In this document: in pieces, positions 7,497 to 24,959 of the stretch | Layout: every line of letters starts with the position of its first letter | Numbering within the stretch: the first letter of the stretch is position 1 | Source of the DNA: a virus | Reading direction: 5' to 3' (one strand) | DNA length: 27,524 nucleotides | IMG/VR virus record: IMGVR_UViG_3300044701_000633 | Location: 1-27,524 of that record | The notes under the pieces: generated by a model | Databases searched by the model: none | What the model was told of the DNA's origin: nothing | The model's input: the letters and a program-made list of their open reading frames with translations, nothing else | Translations under genes and position numbers: made by a program

Positions 7497-7528
7497 CAAA
7501 CATACTACGAACATTTCAACAAAACAAA
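7497..7528 (-). promoter_or_regulatory. strong Bacteroidetes-type promoter for the replication unit
   Basis: On the minus strand, TTTG (7528-7525), a 20-nt spacer and TATGTTTG (7504-7497) match the -33/-7 consensus. The predicted start of transcription is near 7490 and the SSB ATG is at 7464. The leader is rich in A, C and T with no Shine-Dalgarno. It lies directly behind the terminator at 7552-7583, so the replication unit is transcribed independently. Confidence 0.78.
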
Positions 7529-7643: not shown

Positions 7644-7826
7644 TCACCCGCGTCGTTCGTATTGGTTAAAGTTGTGGTGCGCGAACGATGCCCACACGAT
7701 ACCGGCGGTACCAAGTGCGATCGTCCAAACCATTTGTTCGTGTGACACGGCGCAGAAAAAAAGAATGGTCGAAACCATTGTTTGAATCATCGCTTTGCCG
7801 AGGTAGGTATCTTTTTCGTTTTCCAT
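7644..7826 (-). CDS. small membrane protein, 60 aa
   Basis: ATG at 7826; an in-frame extension upstream runs through the promoter and is unlikely. The product starts MENEKDTYLGKAMIQ. It has two hydrophobic segments (TMVSTILFFCAV, about 16-28; VWTIALGTAGIVWASFA, about 33-50) and ends NFNQYERRG. This is the shape of a small two-span inner-membrane protein. It forms a one-gene transcript between the promoter at 7856-7885 and the terminator at 7552-7583, outside the lysis cassette. It could be an early host-membrane effector, a superinfection-exclusion protein or a late antiholin. The sequence does not decide between these. Confidence 0.7.
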   Translation of the reverse strand: MENEKDTYLGKAMIQTMVSTILFFCAVSHEQMVWTIALGTAGIVWASFAHHNFNQYERRG

Positions 7827-7855: not shown

Positions 7856-7885
7856 CAAATATACAAAACCAAACCAATTGTGCAA
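7856..7885 (-). promoter_or_regulatory. Bacteroidetes-type promoter for the 60-aa membrane gene
   Basis: On the minus strand, TTG (7885-7883), a 20-nt spacer and TATATTTG (7863-7856), an exact match to TTG/TAnnTTTG. The predicted start is near 7849, about 22 nt before the ATG at 7826. It lies immediately downstream of palindromic element B, whose edge is at 7897, so that element may regulate it. Confidence 0.78.
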
Positions 7886-7896
7886 GCCCTCAAAAC

Positions 7897-8020
7897 TTAT
7901 TGACACGCGTTGTTGATTTTATTTATATTTATATATCCCTTTAGGGATATATAAATATAAATAAAATACACTGCGCATCAATACCGACCAAATAAATACA
8001 AAAAAACATTTCAACAATGT
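7897..8020. repeat. palindromic element, copy B
   Basis: A perfect inverted repeat with 25-bp arms (7916-7940 and 7943-7967) and a 2-bp centre TT is bounded by conserved flanks. The 19 bp on the left (7897-7915) are identical to copy A at 24832-24850. The 53 bp on the right (7968-8020) match copy A at 45 positions. The outer flanks hold a second, imperfect inverted repeat: TATTGACACGC on the left and TATTGATGCGC read inward from the right. It lies in a 315-bp gene-free gap (7827-8141) between a terminator and a promoter. Candidate roles are operator, replication origin or mobile palindrome. Confidence 0.9.
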
Positions 8021-8086: not shown

Positions 8087-8111
8087 AAAAAAACCCGACA
8101 CATTGGTCGGG
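8087..8111 (-). terminator. rho-independent terminator after the lysis cassette
   Basis: Stem CCCGAC/GTCGGG (8106-8111 with 8094-8099), 6-nt loop, followed leftward by seven T. It lies 30 bases past the spanin stop and closes the long late transcript of tail and lysis genes. Confidence 0.88.
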
Positions 8112-8141
8112 CATATCATTTCGGTGACGTCAACGATATGG

Positions 8142-10015: not shown

Positions 10016-10137
10016 TTTTGCGGTTTTTCGGTTGGTATAAATTTACGAATAGTTTTCAAATGTTCGGCGGTGATTGGTATAATTTTACCGCCGTTCTTTT
10101 CAATTTGTTCAATCAATTGTTTGGTTGCCTTTATCAT
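10012..10137 (-). CDS. small hypothetical protein, 41 aa
   Basis: ATG at 10137, TGA at 10012-10014. The product is basic (MIKATKQLIEQIEKNGGK, then IIPITAEHLKTIRKFIP) and looks like two short helices. It overlaps the fibre gene stop as ATGA and the next start as ATGA, so it is translationally linked on both sides. It is probably a genuine short gene of unknown function. Confidence 0.6.
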   Translation of the reverse strand: MIKATKQLIEQIEKNGGKIIPITAEHLKTIRKFIPTEKPQK

Positions 10138-13100
10138 ATCTCAAACGCTGGTATTAAATATCCGACGCCATCAATGTCAATCTTCAACCACATCTCGGGC
10201 GACGTCAATGTGCCTTCGTTGGTTCCGTAGTATCGGTCAACGTCAACGCCAGCGTTGTACAATGTCGGCGGGTCACTTGGTGAATCGAAACGCGGAACAC
10301 CGACGACGTGAATGATGTTCGTTGGTGCGGTTGTTCCGATGCCGACGTTGCCAGCGGACGTGATTCGCATACGTTCATCATAGAATGCTCCAAATGTTAG
10401 ATTGTGTCCCGTAGAACCAACCCATACGGAGTCGTTTGATGCGTTTACTGGATCTTCAAATGATATGCGAGAATCAGAACCGGATGATGTTTTGGCACGA
10501 ATGACAAATGGATTCGTAGATGTTGCCCGTATGATTCCAGCAACGTCTAATTTTTGTCCCGGCGATGTCGTCCCAATGCCAACGTTTCCGCCGTTAGTCG
10601 CAATAAGTATATCCCTCCACGCTACGCCACTATGTACGGCATTGATAATTCCAGCATTTAAAGTGTTGCTATATCCTAAAATTAAACTTTTTGATGTACT
10701 CGTTTGAGAAATCCATAGCCCGTATTGATTTTCATCATACGCGAGAGATATGTCTGTCGGGTTGTAAATATGTGTTTTTACTTGAGGCGCCGTCGTACCA
10801 ATGCCGACGTTGCCCGACTTAATTGTTAAGTTTGCTACACCAGTGGTATCATTTCCTAACGACAATGTTCCATTTGTAGAACCAACCCACCCATCTCCAG
10901 CGACGGAACCAGTCCAAAATTGTCCCGAACTAGCAGCCGATGCAATTATTATATCACTTGACGTTCTTCCAACACTTAAAATAGAATATTGACCCGAATT
11001 GCCACTTCTAACACTTATTGATGTTGTGTTTCCAGCGACTACCTCCAACCTCGCCCCCGGCGCCGTCGTACCAATGCCGACGTTGCCGGTTGAATACTGA
11101 ATAACCATTGGGAATCCAGCAGTACCAACCGAATAAAATCCATAGTTGTCGGAATTTTCATAAACACCCGTGAACCATTTTTGCGTACTACCTTGGTAAT
11201 AATTAACGCCAGCACTCGCATTACTAATGCCTTTACTTACGCCCAAAATTCCATAAGTATCACCGGAAACATACGCTCCGGGGTTGGTTCCGAATGCGCC
11301 ATTTACGTGTAATTTATACGATGGTGAAGTCGTACCAATACCGACGTTTCCGTCAACCCCAATAATCATTTGGGTAACATTATTTTGACGAAATTGAATT
11401 GAGGAACCAGTTGGTCGGTTTATGTAAAGCGTTGGGTCAGTTGGCGACGATAAGATATTGTAATTGCCTTCGCTTAACGTTCCATTGAATGAAATACCGG
11501 TGTAGTTTCCACCAGTAAAACCAGCAATACCAATCTTTGCAGTTCCAGTTCCGTCACCAGTTACAACGAGTTTTTTGTCGGGCGACGTAGTACCAATGCC
11601 GACGTTGCCGCCGTCGGGATTGATATTCAATTGACGCGCCGTACCATTTGACAACGTTGCTTGAATGCTCGGTTCGCCGGTTGAATCGGTACCGATGTAA
11701 ACGCGGCGGTTTCCCGTGTCGTTTGACACGACAAGTGCGTGACCGCTTCCGTCGACGTGAAGGCGTGTTGCTGGCGCAGTCGTCCCAATACCGACGTTGC
11801 CGGCATTTGTAATACGCATACGTTCGGCGTTTGCAGTTAGAAAATTAAAATCTGATGCTACTGCCGAACCAATACTATAAAGAGAATTTGTATTGTCCCA
11901 AGCCAAAAGTGCTTTTGTTGTTCCGTTGTTTGCAAAGTATTGCGTGGTATATCGCTGCCCACCATTGTCTAAAAATAATACATCATCGTCACCACCTTTA
12001 ATGTGAAGTTTCTTTGCCGGCGTCGCCGTCCCAATACCCACGTTGGTTCCGTTGTCGAACACCAACGAATTACCCAACGCCGAACCCGACGTCCACTTTG
12101 ATAAATAGTTCGTCGTGCCGCCACCCGTGATGGTTCCGCCCGACGACGGCGCGGTGTTCGTGATCGTGAAGTTCGGATATGTTCCCGTTACCGATATTCC
12201 CGTCGATGCCGTCAACGCAACCACTTGATCGGGCGCGGTGTTCTCAATGGTAAAGTTCGGATATGCCCCCGTTACGGCGATTCCCGTTGACGCGGTAACC
12301 GCCACCACTTGGTCGGGTGCGGCGTTCGTTATGACACCCGTTCCATTGTTGTACGATATGCCGACACCAGCCGACAACGCCGCACGTGCGCGGGCGTCGG
12401 TGAAATAAAGGTTTGTCACTTCACCGATGTTTGACGTCGTCAGCACGACGGCGCCCGTCAGCCCGTTGACCGATGTCACCGGTGCGGTGTCGTAATCCGA
12501 CCACGTCGCCGTGATTGTTCCGCCGTCGCCTTGCGTCAGCGTCAGCGTCTTCGATGTGGTACCCGTTACGGCCGCGGAAACGATGCGGTCGTTGTACGCC
12601 GTGTCCCATTCACCCGTTTGCGTTGTGGTGACAATGACGCGGCCAGCATCCAACGAAAACACGCCAGTCGTGTTGTTGTACGATATGCCGTCGATGGTTT
12701 CGGAAATTGCCGCGCGTGAACGTGCGTTGGTGAAATAAAGGTTTGTCCCTTCACCAATGTTTGTCGTCGTTCCCGCGACGTTTTCCCAACGCGACGTCGC
12801 CGTGTTGTACTGCAACAAATCGTTGTCGGCGACCGATGTGATTTGCACGTCGGACGCATCCGACACACGCGATCCCGTTTCTGAACGAACGGCCAAAACA
12901 CCGCTTGTGGCGTTCGAACGTACAACAAACGCCACCGCAAGTTTGAGGTTTGGCGCGGCGGGTTCCGTAGACGTCAGCCCACCGGCAACGGCGGGGTTGC
13001 ACCACAATACCGCCCCTTCGGTAAACGACGACGTGTTCAGTTGCCGTATTTTACCGAACGTCGTCACATAACCTTCGCCGCCGTCTAAAATATCTTCGGC

Positions 13101-15527
13101 CGCGATGCCCAAAAAGAAACGTGGTGGAACAGAACCATCCGCCACCATTGGTGCGGCCAAAATGCGGCCCGATGCGCCAAGCGTACCCGCCGCGCGAACC
13201 GCACTCCCCTTTGGTATGGTCGAACCCGTTTGGTTTTTGACGAACCAAAATTCCTCTTGTCCGACTTGCATCACAACGTTTGAGTTCAAACCAACGTCGA
13301 TTGTGCCGTCGTCTTGCGACCATACGATTTGCCCTTGAACGGGTGTTGTGTTGTACGTCGTATCGAGTTGAACGTACTCGCCCGTCAGCGGCCCCGTAGA
13401 CGTCACCGACCCCGTGATGTTCACGTCGTTGTTGAACTGCGAAACGCCGTCAACGTCCAAACCAGCGTCCAACGTAACGTCGCCCGTGACGTTCATCGTT
13501 CCGTTGACGCGGGCGCCCGTTGAGGTTTGTTGGAATGGGCCGATTTTTTCGTTTTCAATATCGATATCCATTCCCGAAATACGTCCGCCCACGATATCGT
13601 TTGGCGATACGCCCGACGTTGTGGCCGATGCAATCGTGTTTCGTGCAACCAAATCCGGCAGTTCGGGCAATTCAGAAACCGACGCACGAATGGTTTGGAT
13701 TCGGTACCACGTTCCCGACCATTCGTCGGTGTTTGCGGCAAACGTTCCGCCCGTCATCAAGTACGCTTCAGAATCGAACACGATTCGTTGGCCCAAATAA
13801 AACGTGCCTATTACGTTTCCGTTATATTGTTCAATCGGTCGAACGTGCAACGCCAACGTTTCGTTTGATAAAAGTTTCAAAATCGGCAACGCCGTACCGG
13901 TTGAACCTTTGCGCCAATCCGATGTACCCAACCAATTGGTTCCGTTGTATGCGGCCAAATGTCCCGATTGACGCGGGCCGTCCGCGATCACTACGTCGCC
14001 AAGGTCAATCGTTAAATTCGAATCAACCGACGTGTCGTTGTTCGTTGACGAGAACGTCGCACCGGGTGCGTTCGTTGCGCCATTGGTTTCGATACCAAAT
14101 ACAAAGATTGAATCGAACAACGGCGTTTGCGTTGGCGTGTACGTTGCGCCATTTCCCGCGCGGAATACGCCGTGAAGGGACAACACGAAATCCAATTCGC
14201 CGTTTACCGGAATATCGGGTGTAATGATTGCAACGGGGTAATTCACAACCGCCGTTCCCGACGAGAAAAACGAAGGCAAGTCAAAAAAGTATTCGCCCGA
14301 TGTGGTCGACCACGATGGAATGCCAAACATTGCGCCGCCCGCGGCGTACCCGTTATACGTTCGGTTGCAGTAATAGTAGGTTCCCGTCGATGAATCTTGA
14401 ATGCGGATTCGAATTTTGAACACGGGAAAAATCGGCGACGTCGCGGTCGGTGCGCCGACAACTTTGAAATTGAACGACGTTGAACCAAGGTTCAGTTGGA
14501 TTCCCGAACCGCCCGCGATGAAGCCAGCGGTATATGACGTGTTCGTGGTACGGAATCGGTATTGGCCAAATGCGTTGAACGGGTTGAGGAATCTTTGAAC
14601 GTAGTGAATTTTAGCCAACTGCGCGGCGGGTAGAAAATTCCAATTGTTACCCGCACGGCGTGCGCCATTTATACTTTGATCAATGGTTACGTCGTCCGAT
14701 ACCAATACACGACCAATGTGCGTGGCGGTTTTTGTGTACCGCGAAACGTAACGCGATGCGGCATCGCGGTTTCCGTATTGCTCAAATACGAAACGTCCGT
14801 TTTGCATGAAAATTCGTGCGTTGTACAACGTTGCAACTTGGCGCAGTATTTCCAGCGTTGATGAATAAACGTCGTTCCCGTCGTCGTCCTTTTCGCGGAA
14901 ATACCGAACGTCAAAACCTTGCGTTGCCAACGGGTCGTTTGCCGTTGAATACGTTTGCGCGTTGGTTTCCCACCAATCCGCCGACGTTTCAAAAAACACG
15001 TCAGACGAACCCCACAAACCAGCGGTTCCGATTTTATCAAATGACGTTTTCAAAACGTCGGTGATGCGCGATACCTTGAACCCGTTGGTTTCGTTCACCG
15101 AATTGTTGTCGTCGTAATCAATGTTCGCCAAACGACCGATGCCGTCGGTTGCCGTGATTTCGTAGATGTAGGGTTGTGACGCGTCTTCGACGTTTACGAG
15201 GTCTTGCGTAATCCATCCCGCCCAATATAAATCGTACGACGTTCCGTTGTATTTCCGAACCGCAAGTTGAAAGCGGTTTTCTTGGAACGTTTTCAGCGTG
15301 TCAATGAACGTTTCAAACGTGCCGTTGGCCGAATACGCGCCGAACGTTAGTTTCGACCCTACAATGGGCGAAACGATGTCGTCGGTTTCACCTTCGTACG
15401 TTAAATCAAAACCGCGCGAATCAACGTTGAATTCCGTTGCCGCCGCCAACCAATTGGCGTCGTGAATTTCGATTTTGTATTGGGTGCCGTTGTCGGACTT
15501 GAATTCGGAAAATAAACGAATTGCCAT
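10134..15527 (-). CDS. tail tip / receptor-binding tail fibre protein, 1797 aa
   Basis: The largest gene. Residues 1 to about 620 form a tail-tip-like section: a beta-rich start (AIRLFSEFKSDNGTQYKIEI), then YNGTSYDLYWAGWI and IYEITATDGIGRLANIDYD. About 650-720 is a thin repeated shaft (MNVTGDVTLDAGLDVDG). Around 730-890 lies a compact domain (GQIVWSQDDGTIDVG ... FFLGIAAEDI). About 905-1130 holds 'NLYFT-x-A-R-x-RAA' repeats and a tandem 28-residue unit. About 1156-1740 has eight 'NVGIGT-x-x-P' repeats. The C-terminus (DRYYGTNEGTLTSPEMWLKI) is the probable receptor end. I see no S74 chaperone domain. It follows the tape measure gene and should sit at the tail tip and bind the host surface. Confidence 0.85.
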   Translation of the reverse strand: MAIRLFSEFKSDNGTQYKIEIHDANWLAAATEFNVDSRGFDLTYEGETDDIVSPIVGSKLTFGAYSANGTFETFIDTLKTFQENRFQLAVRKYNGTSYDLYWAGWITQDLVNVEDASQPYIYEITATDGIGRLANIDYDDNNSVNETNGFKVSRITDVLKTSFDKIGTAGLWGSSDVFFETSADWWETNAQTYSTANDPLATQGFDVRYFREKDDDGNDVYSSTLEILRQVATLYNARIFMQNGRFVFEQYGNRDAASRYVSRYTKTATHIGRVLVSDDVTIDQSINGARRAGNNWNFLPAAQLAKIHYVQRFLNPFNAFGQYRFRTTNTSYTAGFIAGGSGIQLNLGSTSFNFKVVGAPTATSPIFPVFKIRIRIQDSSTGTYYYCNRTYNGYAAGGAMFGIPSWSTTSGEYFFDLPSFFSSGTAVVNYPVAIITPDIPVNGELDFVLSLHGVFRAGNGATYTPTQTPLFDSIFVFGIETNGATNAPGATFSSTNNDTSVDSNLTIDLGDVVIADGPRQSGHLAAYNGTNWLGTSDWRKGSTGTALPILKLLSNETLALHVRPIEQYNGNVIGTFYLGQRIVFDSEAYLMTGGTFAANTDEWSGTWYRIQTIRASVSELPELPDLVARNTIASATTSGVSPNDIVGGRISGMDIDIENEKIGPFQQTSTGARVNGTMNVTGDVTLDAGLDVDGVSQFNNDVNITGSVTSTGPLTGEYVQLDTTYNTTPVQGQIVWSQDDGTIDVGLNSNVVMQVGQEEFWFVKNQTGSTIPKGSAVRAAGTLGASGRILAAPMVADGSVPPRFFLGIAAEDILDGGEGYVTTFGKIRQLNTSSFTEGAVLWCNPAVAGGLTSTEPAAPNLKLAVAFVVRSNATSGVLAVRSETGSRVSDASDVQITSVADNDLLQYNTATSRWENVAGTTTNIGEGTNLYFTNARSRAAISETIDGISYNNTTGVFSLDAGRVIVTTTQTGEWDTAYNDRIVSAAVTGTTSKTLTLTQGDGGTITATWSDYDTAPVTSVNGLTGAVVLTTSNIGEVTNLYFTDARARAALSAGVGISYNNGTGVITNAAPDQVVAVTASTGIAVTGAYPNFTIENTAPDQVVALTASTGISVTGTYPNFTITNTAPSSGGTITGGGTTNYLSKWTSGSALGNSLVFDNGTNVGIGTATPAKKLHIKGGDDDVLFLDNGGQRYTTQYFANNGTTKALLAWDNTNSLYSIGSAVASDFNFLTANAERMRITNAGNVGIGTTAPATRLHVDGSGHALVVSNDTGNRRVYIGTDSTGEPSIQATLSNGTARQLNINPDGGNVGIGTTSPDKKLVVTGDGTGTAKIGIAGFTGGNYTGISFNGTLSEGNYNILSSPTDPTLYINRPTGSSIQFRQNNVTQMIIGVDGNVGIGTTSPSYKLHVNGAFGTNPGAYVSGDTYGILGVSKGISNASAGVNYYQGSTQKWFTGVYENSDNYGFYSVGTAGFPMVIQYSTGNVGIGTTAPGARLEVVAGNTTSISVRSGNSGQYSILSVGRTSSDIIIASAASSGQFWTGSVAGDGWVGSTNGTLSLGNDTTGVANLTIKSGNVGIGTTAPQVKTHIYNPTDISLAYDENQYGLWISQTSTSKSLILGYSNTLNAGIINAVHSGVAWRDILIATNGGNVGIGTTSPGQKLDVAGIIRATSTNPFVIRAKTSSGSDSRISFEDPVNASNDSVWVGSTGHNLTFGAFYDERMRITSAGNVGIGTTAPTNIIHVVGVPRFDSPSDPPTLYNAGVDVDRYYGTNEGTLTSPEMWLKIDIDGVGYLIPAFEI
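10329..12048 (-). repeat. eight dispersed 'NVGIGT-x-x-P' coding repeats in the fibre gene
   Basis: A core of about 24 bp (plus-strand form ...CCAATGCCGACGTTGCC...) recurs near 10335, 10570, 10800, 11075, 11338, 11592, 11790 and 12030, at intervals of roughly 195-275 bp. Each encodes G-N-V-G-I-G-T-T-(A/S)-P followed by a short LHV-like strand. The DNA between cores is dissimilar and locally richer in A+T than the rest of the gene. Such conserved cores can serve as recombination points for swapping host-range modules. Confidence 0.85.
12151..12318 (-). repeat. tandem 84-bp direct repeat (two units) in the fibre gene
   Basis: Units 12151-12234 and 12235-12318 encode two 28-residue copies of APDQVV-x-x-TASTGI-x-VTG-x-YPNFTI-x-NT with few substitutions. 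The period is exactly 84 bp. A third, partial APxxxx start follows. This is a recent in-frame duplication in the fibre shaft. Confidence 0.85.
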
Positions 15528-23559: not shown

Positions 23560-24765
23560 TTAAATGCTTGTGTCTTCGCCCGCGTTCACCATGTTCAACG
23601 GCTGGAGGTACACGTCGCCACCTTCGACGTCGGGCAATTGTTCTTTTTTGCGAATGTCGTTCACCGACAACCAACCCCATTGGCGGCCGACGGCGTACGC
23701 ATCGTATCGCGATTTAATGTCACCACGCAACAAACCTTCGAGGTTGAACTCGACGAAAAACGGCGATTCCAAACCAAAGAGTTTCAACGTGAATTCTTGT
23801 TCCCAACGCACGGCGTATGGGCGAATCGTATTGCGGACAAACTGAATACCTTGTTCCTCGACGTTCGCACGCGTGGCGGAATTTTTCAAATCGCCCAGCA
23901 TATGCGGCGGAATAAGAAACCAGCGGGCAACCTCTTCGACTTGGAACTCGCGTGTTTGCAAAAATTGCGCTTGATCGGGCGGAATCGTCATGCGCTCGAT
24001 TTTCATCCCCTCTTCGAGAATTGCGGTTTTGTGGGCGTTGCCCAAACCGCCGTATGAATTTGCCCACGAATTGCGGATTCGCGTGTACGCCTCGTCCGAC
24101 AAACGTCCGGGGTGCGTTAACACGCCACCGACGTTTGCGCCGTTGCCGAAAAATTGTGCGCCGAACTGGTTTGCCGCCAAACCAATTCCAAAGGTTTCGC
24201 GGGCGGCCTTGATCGGTGAAATACCGACCATGCCGTCGAACGACAATCCACAAACGTGAATCATTTCGAAATCGGCGTAAACCTCTTTTTTGTCAACGTG
24301 GTAATATTTTTCGCCGTCGACGACTTTGATTTCAACCCGCAATGGGTGAATCGGAACCAACTTGGTGACGGCGGCGGTTCCGTCGCGCTCGATGAATGCG
24401 TATGCGTTGCCGTGAAGCGCAAGGTTCGCCATCATCGTTTCGCGGAACGTCATTGACGTCATCATCGGATTCGGACGGCGAAGGATTTTCGTCATCGGGT
24501 GATTCGCCACCGCGACGGGTGACTCGTCTTCGGTCGTGTAAACGTTCCACGGCAACGACGCGATTGTTTCCGATAAAATGCGAACTGAAGCCCAAACCGC
24601 CGAAAACGTCATGGCGGTTTTTTCGTTTACCGAAACACCCGTTTTTGATCGGTCGTCAGAAAACAACCATTCGGCTGGTTTGGCCAACGACGTTGACGGG
24701 TTGTTGGGCGATGCGCGGAACAATCCGCGGAATCGGTCAAGTATTGTGTTTTGCGTTTCGGCCAT
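23560..24765 (-). CDS. portal protein (HK97 family)
   Basis: 401 aa. AVWASVRILSETIASLPWNVY, ILRRPNPMMTSMTFRETMM.NLALHGNAYAFIERDG, PIHPLRVEIKVVDGEKYY, FEMIHVCGLSFDGMVGISPIKAAR and ARWFLIPPHMLGDLKNSATRANVEEQGI are the conserved blocks of HK97-type portals. The order matches clip, wing and stem. It forms the dodecameric ring through which DNA enters. The start at 24765 (MAETQNTILDRFRGLF) lies 67 bp left of palindromic element A. A possible -7 box, TATTTTTG, is at 24783-24790 without a matching -33. Confidence 0.95.
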   Translation of the reverse strand: MAETQNTILDRFRGLFRASPNNPSTSLAKPAEWLFSDDRSKTGVSVNEKTAMTFSAVWASVRILSETIASLPWNVYTTEDESPVAVANHPMTKILRRPNPMMTSMTFRETMMANLALHGNAYAFIERDGTAAVTKLVPIHPLRVEIKVVDGEKYYHVDKKEVYADFEMIHVCGLSFDGMVGISPIKAARETFGIGLAANQFGAQFFGNGANVGGVLTHPGRLSDEAYTRIRNSWANSYGGLGNAHKTAILEEGMKIERMTIPPDQAQFLQTREFQVEEVARWFLIPPHMLGDLKNSATRANVEEQGIQFVRNTIRPYAVRWEQEFTLKLFGLESPFFVEFNLEGLLRGDIKSRYDAYAVGRQWGWLSVNDIRKKEQLPDVEGGDVYLQPLNMVNAGEDTSI

Positions 24766-24831
24766 GGTACGGGAATCCCCACCAAAAATACGAAACCTAT
24801 TCCATACCGCGTACGAATTGACCGAAAAAAT

Positions 24832-24959
24832 TTATTGACACGCGTTGTTGATTTTATTTATTTATTTATATATCCCTAAAGGGATATATAAATAAATAAA
24901 TAAAATACACGGCGCATCAATACGAACCAAATAAATAAACAAAAACTTTCGAACAATGT
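24832..24959. repeat. palindromic element, copy A
   Basis: A perfect inverted repeat has 27-bp arms (24851-24877 and 24880-24906) and a 2-bp centre AA. Copy B at 7897-8020 has 25-bp arms and centre TT. Relative to B, copy A carries two extra bases in each arm at mirrored positions, so pairing is kept. The flanks match copy B: 19 of 19 on the left and 45 of 53 on the right. The outer inverted TATTGAYRCGC motif is also present. The right edge abuts the stop codon of the DUF1599-like gene. It fills most of the gap between that gene and portal. Confidence 0.9.

Follow-up and report, generated by a model that had tools for sequence, protein, structure and literature searches.

Perfect palindromes kept at two module borders of a siphophage lineage, with arms that change together and loops that invert

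The nut sites of lambdoid phages (boxA/boxB) and the put sites of HK022 are found twice in each phage, once for every main operon; they are located downstream of promoters and function as RNA. In phage N4, the early promoters used by the virion RNA polymerase consist of short hairpin stems with a sequence-specific loop. At the mutational level, template switching between inverted repeats yields homogenized arms and inverted spacers or loops, and the reported cases are single events in yeast genes, rRNA, and similar sequences (Monttinen and Loytynoja 2022, PMC8794818; Abraham and Hazkani-Covo 2021, PMC8604942). The palindromic element described here was found in a 27.5-kb IMG/VR virus record (27,524 nucleotides, hereafter the window), which is a siphophage fragment. 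It resembles the nut and put sites in its structured stem and in being present twice, once for each main operon, but its stem is far longer and a candidate promoter lies downstream of the hairpin. As in the N4 promoters, a hairpin with a short loop is found at phage promoters (candidate ones here); unlike in N4, the loop inverts freely, and the window contains no family match indicating a virion RNA polymerase. Like intrinsic (Rho-independent) terminators, it is an intergenic hairpin with a T-tract next to it on the coding strand, but it differs from them in its AT-rich shaft, its interrupted base that is not GC-rich, and its strongly conserved outer sequence.

The recognized genes of the window are carried on the minus strand, in the order terminase, portal, protease, capsid, tape measure, tail fibre, amidase, and a 60-aa protein, beyond which are encoded a Gp2.5/annealing-like protein, an exonuclease (exonuclease VIII-like), a resolvase-like nuclease, and a PrimPol-AAA protein. 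Two perfect palindromes are present, as the first-pass annotation of this DNA had described them: copy A (7916–7967) has 25-bp arms and the centre TT on the plus strand, and copy B (24851–24906) has 27-bp arms and the centre AA on the same strand. A single 2-bp indel, mirrored on both sides, distinguishes the arms of the two copies; the 19-bp left flank (TTATTGACACGCGTTGTTG) is identical in the two copies, and the 53-bp right flank has eight mismatches, hence 45 identical positions. The gene annotation of the window also bore out the earlier claim that each copy is intergenic and stands at a module border. Copy A lies past the lysis region and a canonical intrinsic terminator (8093–8112, minus strand) and ahead of the replication module, whose first gene after the copy encodes the 60-aa small protein of no known family (7644–7826, minus strand), followed by those for the ssDNA-annealing-like protein, the exonuclease, and PrimPol. 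Copy B lies past the stop of a 92-aa gene situated behind the terminase, and the first gene after it is the portal gene (23560–24765, minus strand).

Beyond the perfect arms, the symmetry continues imperfectly, with an internal asymmetric loop, out to TATTGA/TCAATA, and the whole hairpin with its basal stem occupies 7898–7983 in copy A and 24833–24922 in copy B. On the coding (minus) strand, the 3' outer block CAACAACGCGTGTCAATA (7898–7915 in copy A and, identically, 24833–24850 in copy B) is near-invariant in all relatives, and the 5' outer block (TATTGATGCGCAGTGT at 7968–7983 in copy A; TATTGATGCGCCGTGT at 24907–24922 in copy B) pairs with it to close the hairpin base. The basal stem (left, TATTGACACGC; right, GCGCATCAATA) contains two G·U pairs when read as coding-strand RNA and closes fully through them. 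Directly after the hairpin, the coding strand has a T-tract, TTTT in copy A (7892–7895, minus strand) and TTTTTT in copy B (24825–24830, minus strand). The upstream flanks (7984–8020 and 24923–24959, minus strand), the second of which starts at the stop codon of the 92-aa gene, share the motif TTGTTSAAA...GTATTTATTTGG; the copy A flank is shortened in one clade, and TTGTYGAYAAGTTATTA replaces the motif in one clade. The next best perfect inverted repeat anywhere in the window is 9 bp, and the longest perfect arm in 60 first-order Markov shuffles of the window was 12 bp, against the observed 25 and 27 bp; the palindromes are thus far beyond chance. Folding gave z-scores of −7.3 to −7.9 for the coding-strand RNA and −8.5 for the single DNA strand, and the element is predicted to be a strong hairpin, as RNA or as DNA.

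Flank-anchored pattern scans of IMG/VR viral contigs found the element in approximately 27 related contigs, whose phages fall into three clades with portals 86–100% identical to the window protein. With a flank pattern blind to the palindrome, 31 copies were counted, including the window's own two, and the palindrome was perfect in all 31, in 13 sequence variants; copies found with the opposite-flank pattern likewise occurred only with the palindrome. Flanks persisting without a palindrome, which the first-pass annotation had named as the observation that would count against its reading, were searched for and not seen. Across the relatives and the window, the arms measure 23–27 bp and the centres are AA, TT, A, TAC, GTA, or ATA. 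Even where the CCC cap is swapped (CTCT/AGAG in L016) or the core reads TTTACC-ATA-GGTAAA (G010/L171), the palindrome is still perfect. The shaft varies freely except in being AT-rich, symmetrical, and capped, while the outer blocks TATTGATGCGCCGTKT and CAACAACGCGTGTCAATAANTTTT hardly vary between classes or between clades, a statement to be read with the fact that two scans were baited with parts of these blocks and may have missed some outer variation; a scan that used only the shaft and inner bases did recover an outer variant (G010). In L339 (reverse strand), both outer blocks are altered (TATTGACTCGCC / CTCGTGTCAATA), and L030 has the second change only, so the hairpin base may change stepwise while the shaft stays perfect. 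One basal pair is broken in the L030 and L338 copies. The six longer contigs examined that reach across both sites (20.7–32.9 kb, window included) contain exactly two copies each, oriented alike relative to the genes.

A Fitch count on the class-B portal tree gives at least six arm changes, each of them on both sides, and no one-sided intermediate was seen among the 31 copies, which places the intermediate fraction below approximately 9% (95% bound) when the copies are treated as independent, a treatment that overstates the information. In addition, the loop was inverted with the arms unchanged at least three times, twice between TAC and GTA and once between AA and TT. L003 and L010 both show the change from TAC to GTA and cluster with different TAC relatives (support 93/92 and 92/82, not decisive); the change from AA to TT separates L013 from the window, whose portal DNAs are 98.8% identical. 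Each such inversion by point mutation would take two simultaneous substitutions, and inversion recurs at 1–5% portal divergence. Both marks of template switching are thus observed: the arms change together without one-sided states, and the loop inverts between unchanged arms. Because mirrored changes and loop inversions are its described signature, we infer that the symmetry is very probably renewed by mutation, with the polymerase switching template from one arm to the other as it replicates, which would homogenize the arms and invert the loop; the phage's own exonuclease and annealing proteins may contribute. The first-pass annotation had offered selected pairing or correction of one arm against the other, and the relatives point to both acting together. 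The mirrored changes without intermediates and the loop inversions support correction, the inversions being inexplicable by selection for pairing, and the near-invariant flanks and the retention of the element at two fixed sites in three clades support selection.

The events resemble the published cases (PMC8794818, PMC8604942) in their multi-base mirrored arm changes, loop inversion with unchanged arms, reversible inversions, and maintenance of perfect stems. They differ in belonging to one phage element family, with repeated events, two fixed sites, and no imperfect copy. The family is a natural, repeated case of compensatory stem change apparently made in one step, in which loop inversion is an independent mark of copying rather than of sequential mutation and selection, and the long-standing problem of how perfection is preserved in long stems becomes testable within one phage group. 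In G001 (L001 and L002), copies A and B have an identical core that is absent from all other phages of the set, which suggests conversion between copies approximately 15 kb apart.

Both copies sit between the stop of the upstream gene and a box resembling TAnnTTTG, the −7 consensus of flavobacterial sigma-A (PMC9723704), with the box just downstream. Behind copy A, the candidate Bacteroidota sigma-A −7 box is TATATTTG (7856–7863, minus strand), with TTG 19 nt upstream, and it lies 29 nt ahead of the ATG of the gene at 7644–7826; behind copy B, the candidate box is TATTTTTG (24783–24790, minus strand), 17 nt ahead of the portal ATG. The portal ATG is 67–68 nt past copy B in all relatives. The host phylum, judged only from the TAnnTTTG boxes and the lack of Shine–Dalgarno-like leaders, is probably Bacteroidota. 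Three more TAnnTTTG boxes occur on the minus strand shortly ahead of genes, at approximately 27447, 7504, and 1950, without a palindromic element, and could be promoters of another expression class. Part of the upstream motif beside the element resembles the region ahead of the box at 7504.

As an overall explanation, we tentatively prefer a vertically inherited boundary hairpin whose symmetry is renewed by template switching. Both sites would descend, as paralogues, from a single cis-element passed on vertically. This element would be a long, AT-rich hairpin whose base is fixed and conserved in sequence and whose shaft varies yet always remains self-complementary, and it would stand between the end of one transcription unit and the promoter of the following one, that of the replication module at copy A and that of the structural module at copy B. 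The hairpin would form in RNA of the coding strand when transcription continues past the upstream genes, and would act as a terminator-like structure, or as one for 3'-end processing or stabilization, separating the upstream unit from the downstream promoter. The role of a transcription-unit boundary is a possible one, which we rank first, with a control site acting as DNA close behind it, because a hairpin that lies past the upstream unit and ahead of the portal promoter is the common denominator, distant relatives included. In 18 of 18 aligned representatives, a T-tract comes after the hairpin, and only on the coding strand. In relatives with portals approximately 65% identical (L193/L260 and L261), the gap ahead of portal is occupied by an imperfect, unrelated hairpin (z-scores of −2.3 and −2.9), and in those with 60% identical portals (L276–L278) it contains a canonical intrinsic terminator followed by a TATATTTG box. 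The sister phages L261 (2268–2350) and L193 (2290–2360), whose portals are 91% identical, have imperfect same-site hairpins that still pair even though their stems differ strongly, possibly through the same kind of mirrored change.

Several observations count against the boundary role. A canonical terminator already lies upstream of copy A, making a second one there superfluous, and the hairpin of the 65% clade has no T-tract. Where an intrinsic terminator combines a GC-rich base with a T-tract, the element has a T4–T6 tract and an AT-rich base, and the terminator scan did not call the hairpin at copy B. Terminators need no sequence-identical flanks, and this role leaves one main fact unexplained, the conservation of the outer blocks. 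The broken basal pairing in the L030 and L338 copies counts against it too. Moreover, the shaft has no G·U pair or one-sided variant, although RNA would tolerate them, and this absence fits symmetry at the DNA level as well or better.

A close rival, though somewhat less likely, is that the element works as DNA: a phage or host protein would bind the inverted outer half-sites (TATTGAYRCGC), joined by cruciform extrusion, and would control the two promoters immediately downstream. The outer blocks are near-invariant and common to copies A and B while the shaft varies, the shaft is perfectly Watson–Crick symmetrical without G·U, a folded single DNA strand is strongly structured (z-score of −8.5), and a candidate −7 box lies downstream of both copies, all of which speaks for such a site. 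Against this, the hairpin end and the −7 box are 36 to 49 nt apart, depending on class and clade, which implies no constant helical phasing; the scanned parts of the window yielded no recognizable regulator gene; and at least three other promoter-like sites ahead of genes are without the element.

It is improbable that the palindrome is instead a replication or recombination site, used for PrimPol priming or initiation or cut by a phage nuclease of the Holliday-junction type, with the loop flipping by opening and resolution in each cycle. The phage does encode PrimPol-AAA, exonuclease VIII-like, Gp2.5/annealing-like, and resolvase-like proteins, loop inversion does recur at low portal divergence, and the otherwise unique core common to both G001 copies suggests copy-to-copy conversion. 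However, ordinary template switching needs no dedicated enzyme, neither copy shows a clear GC skew switch or origin signal, and the fixed relation to promoters and start codons would stay unexplained. An even less probable form of this idea is active processing, in which the phage's own PrimPol and resolvase set would handle the palindrome as DNA in every infection at two obligatory sites, by extrusion, cutting or priming, and rejoining; flipped loops and copied arms would then be by-products of a dedicated step of replication or module expression and not of chance template switching. That the palindrome is a functionless relic merely kept symmetrical by template switching is very doubtful: the mechanism alone can account for symmetry (PMC8604942, PMC8794818), but three clades keep the element at the two fixed sites, its flanks have hardly changed, all 31 copies are intact, and in bacteria long perfect palindromes tend to suffer hairpin cleavage and breakage (PMC4245961). 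An assembly artefact, with short-read assembly forcing the symmetry or choosing the loop orientation at random, is highly improbable, since arms of 23–27 bp could be ambiguous at very small k-mers but the asymmetric flanks are intact on both sides, the whole element (approximately 90 bp) fits within one read, and independent metagenomes agree on variants that follow the phylogeny.

The first-pass annotation knew of no described family of this form in Bacteroidetes phages, and no description was found in the collections or the open-access literature searched. Rfam 15 gave no match in the window at the gathering threshold, phage and plasmid collections gave no DNA match to the element, and the 18-bp outer flank pattern had three matches among GTDB genomes, in unrelated contexts and without the palindrome, and hence no prophage or host copy with this flank among those genomes. 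The element family appears to be new, its evolutionary mechanism already known, and it is a possible shared control element for both main gene modules of an uncultivated phage lineage. A scan of the viral contigs for the palindrome only was unspecific. A MITE-like mobile element (TA-flanked, with terminal inverted repeats) was rejected: such an element would have copies at varied sites and empty sites in close relatives, whereas the palindrome is always at the same two sites in all relatives, with two copies in each longer spanning contig. An inward sigma-70-like promoter on the plus strand of copy A was also rejected, being absent from copy B and at odds with a host that is probably of the Bacteroidota. 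Elsewhere in the window, the tail-fibre gene (10134–15527) contains a 43-nt repeat eight times between 10308 and 12045, at a spacing of 192–273 nt, pointing to a modular repeat fibre.
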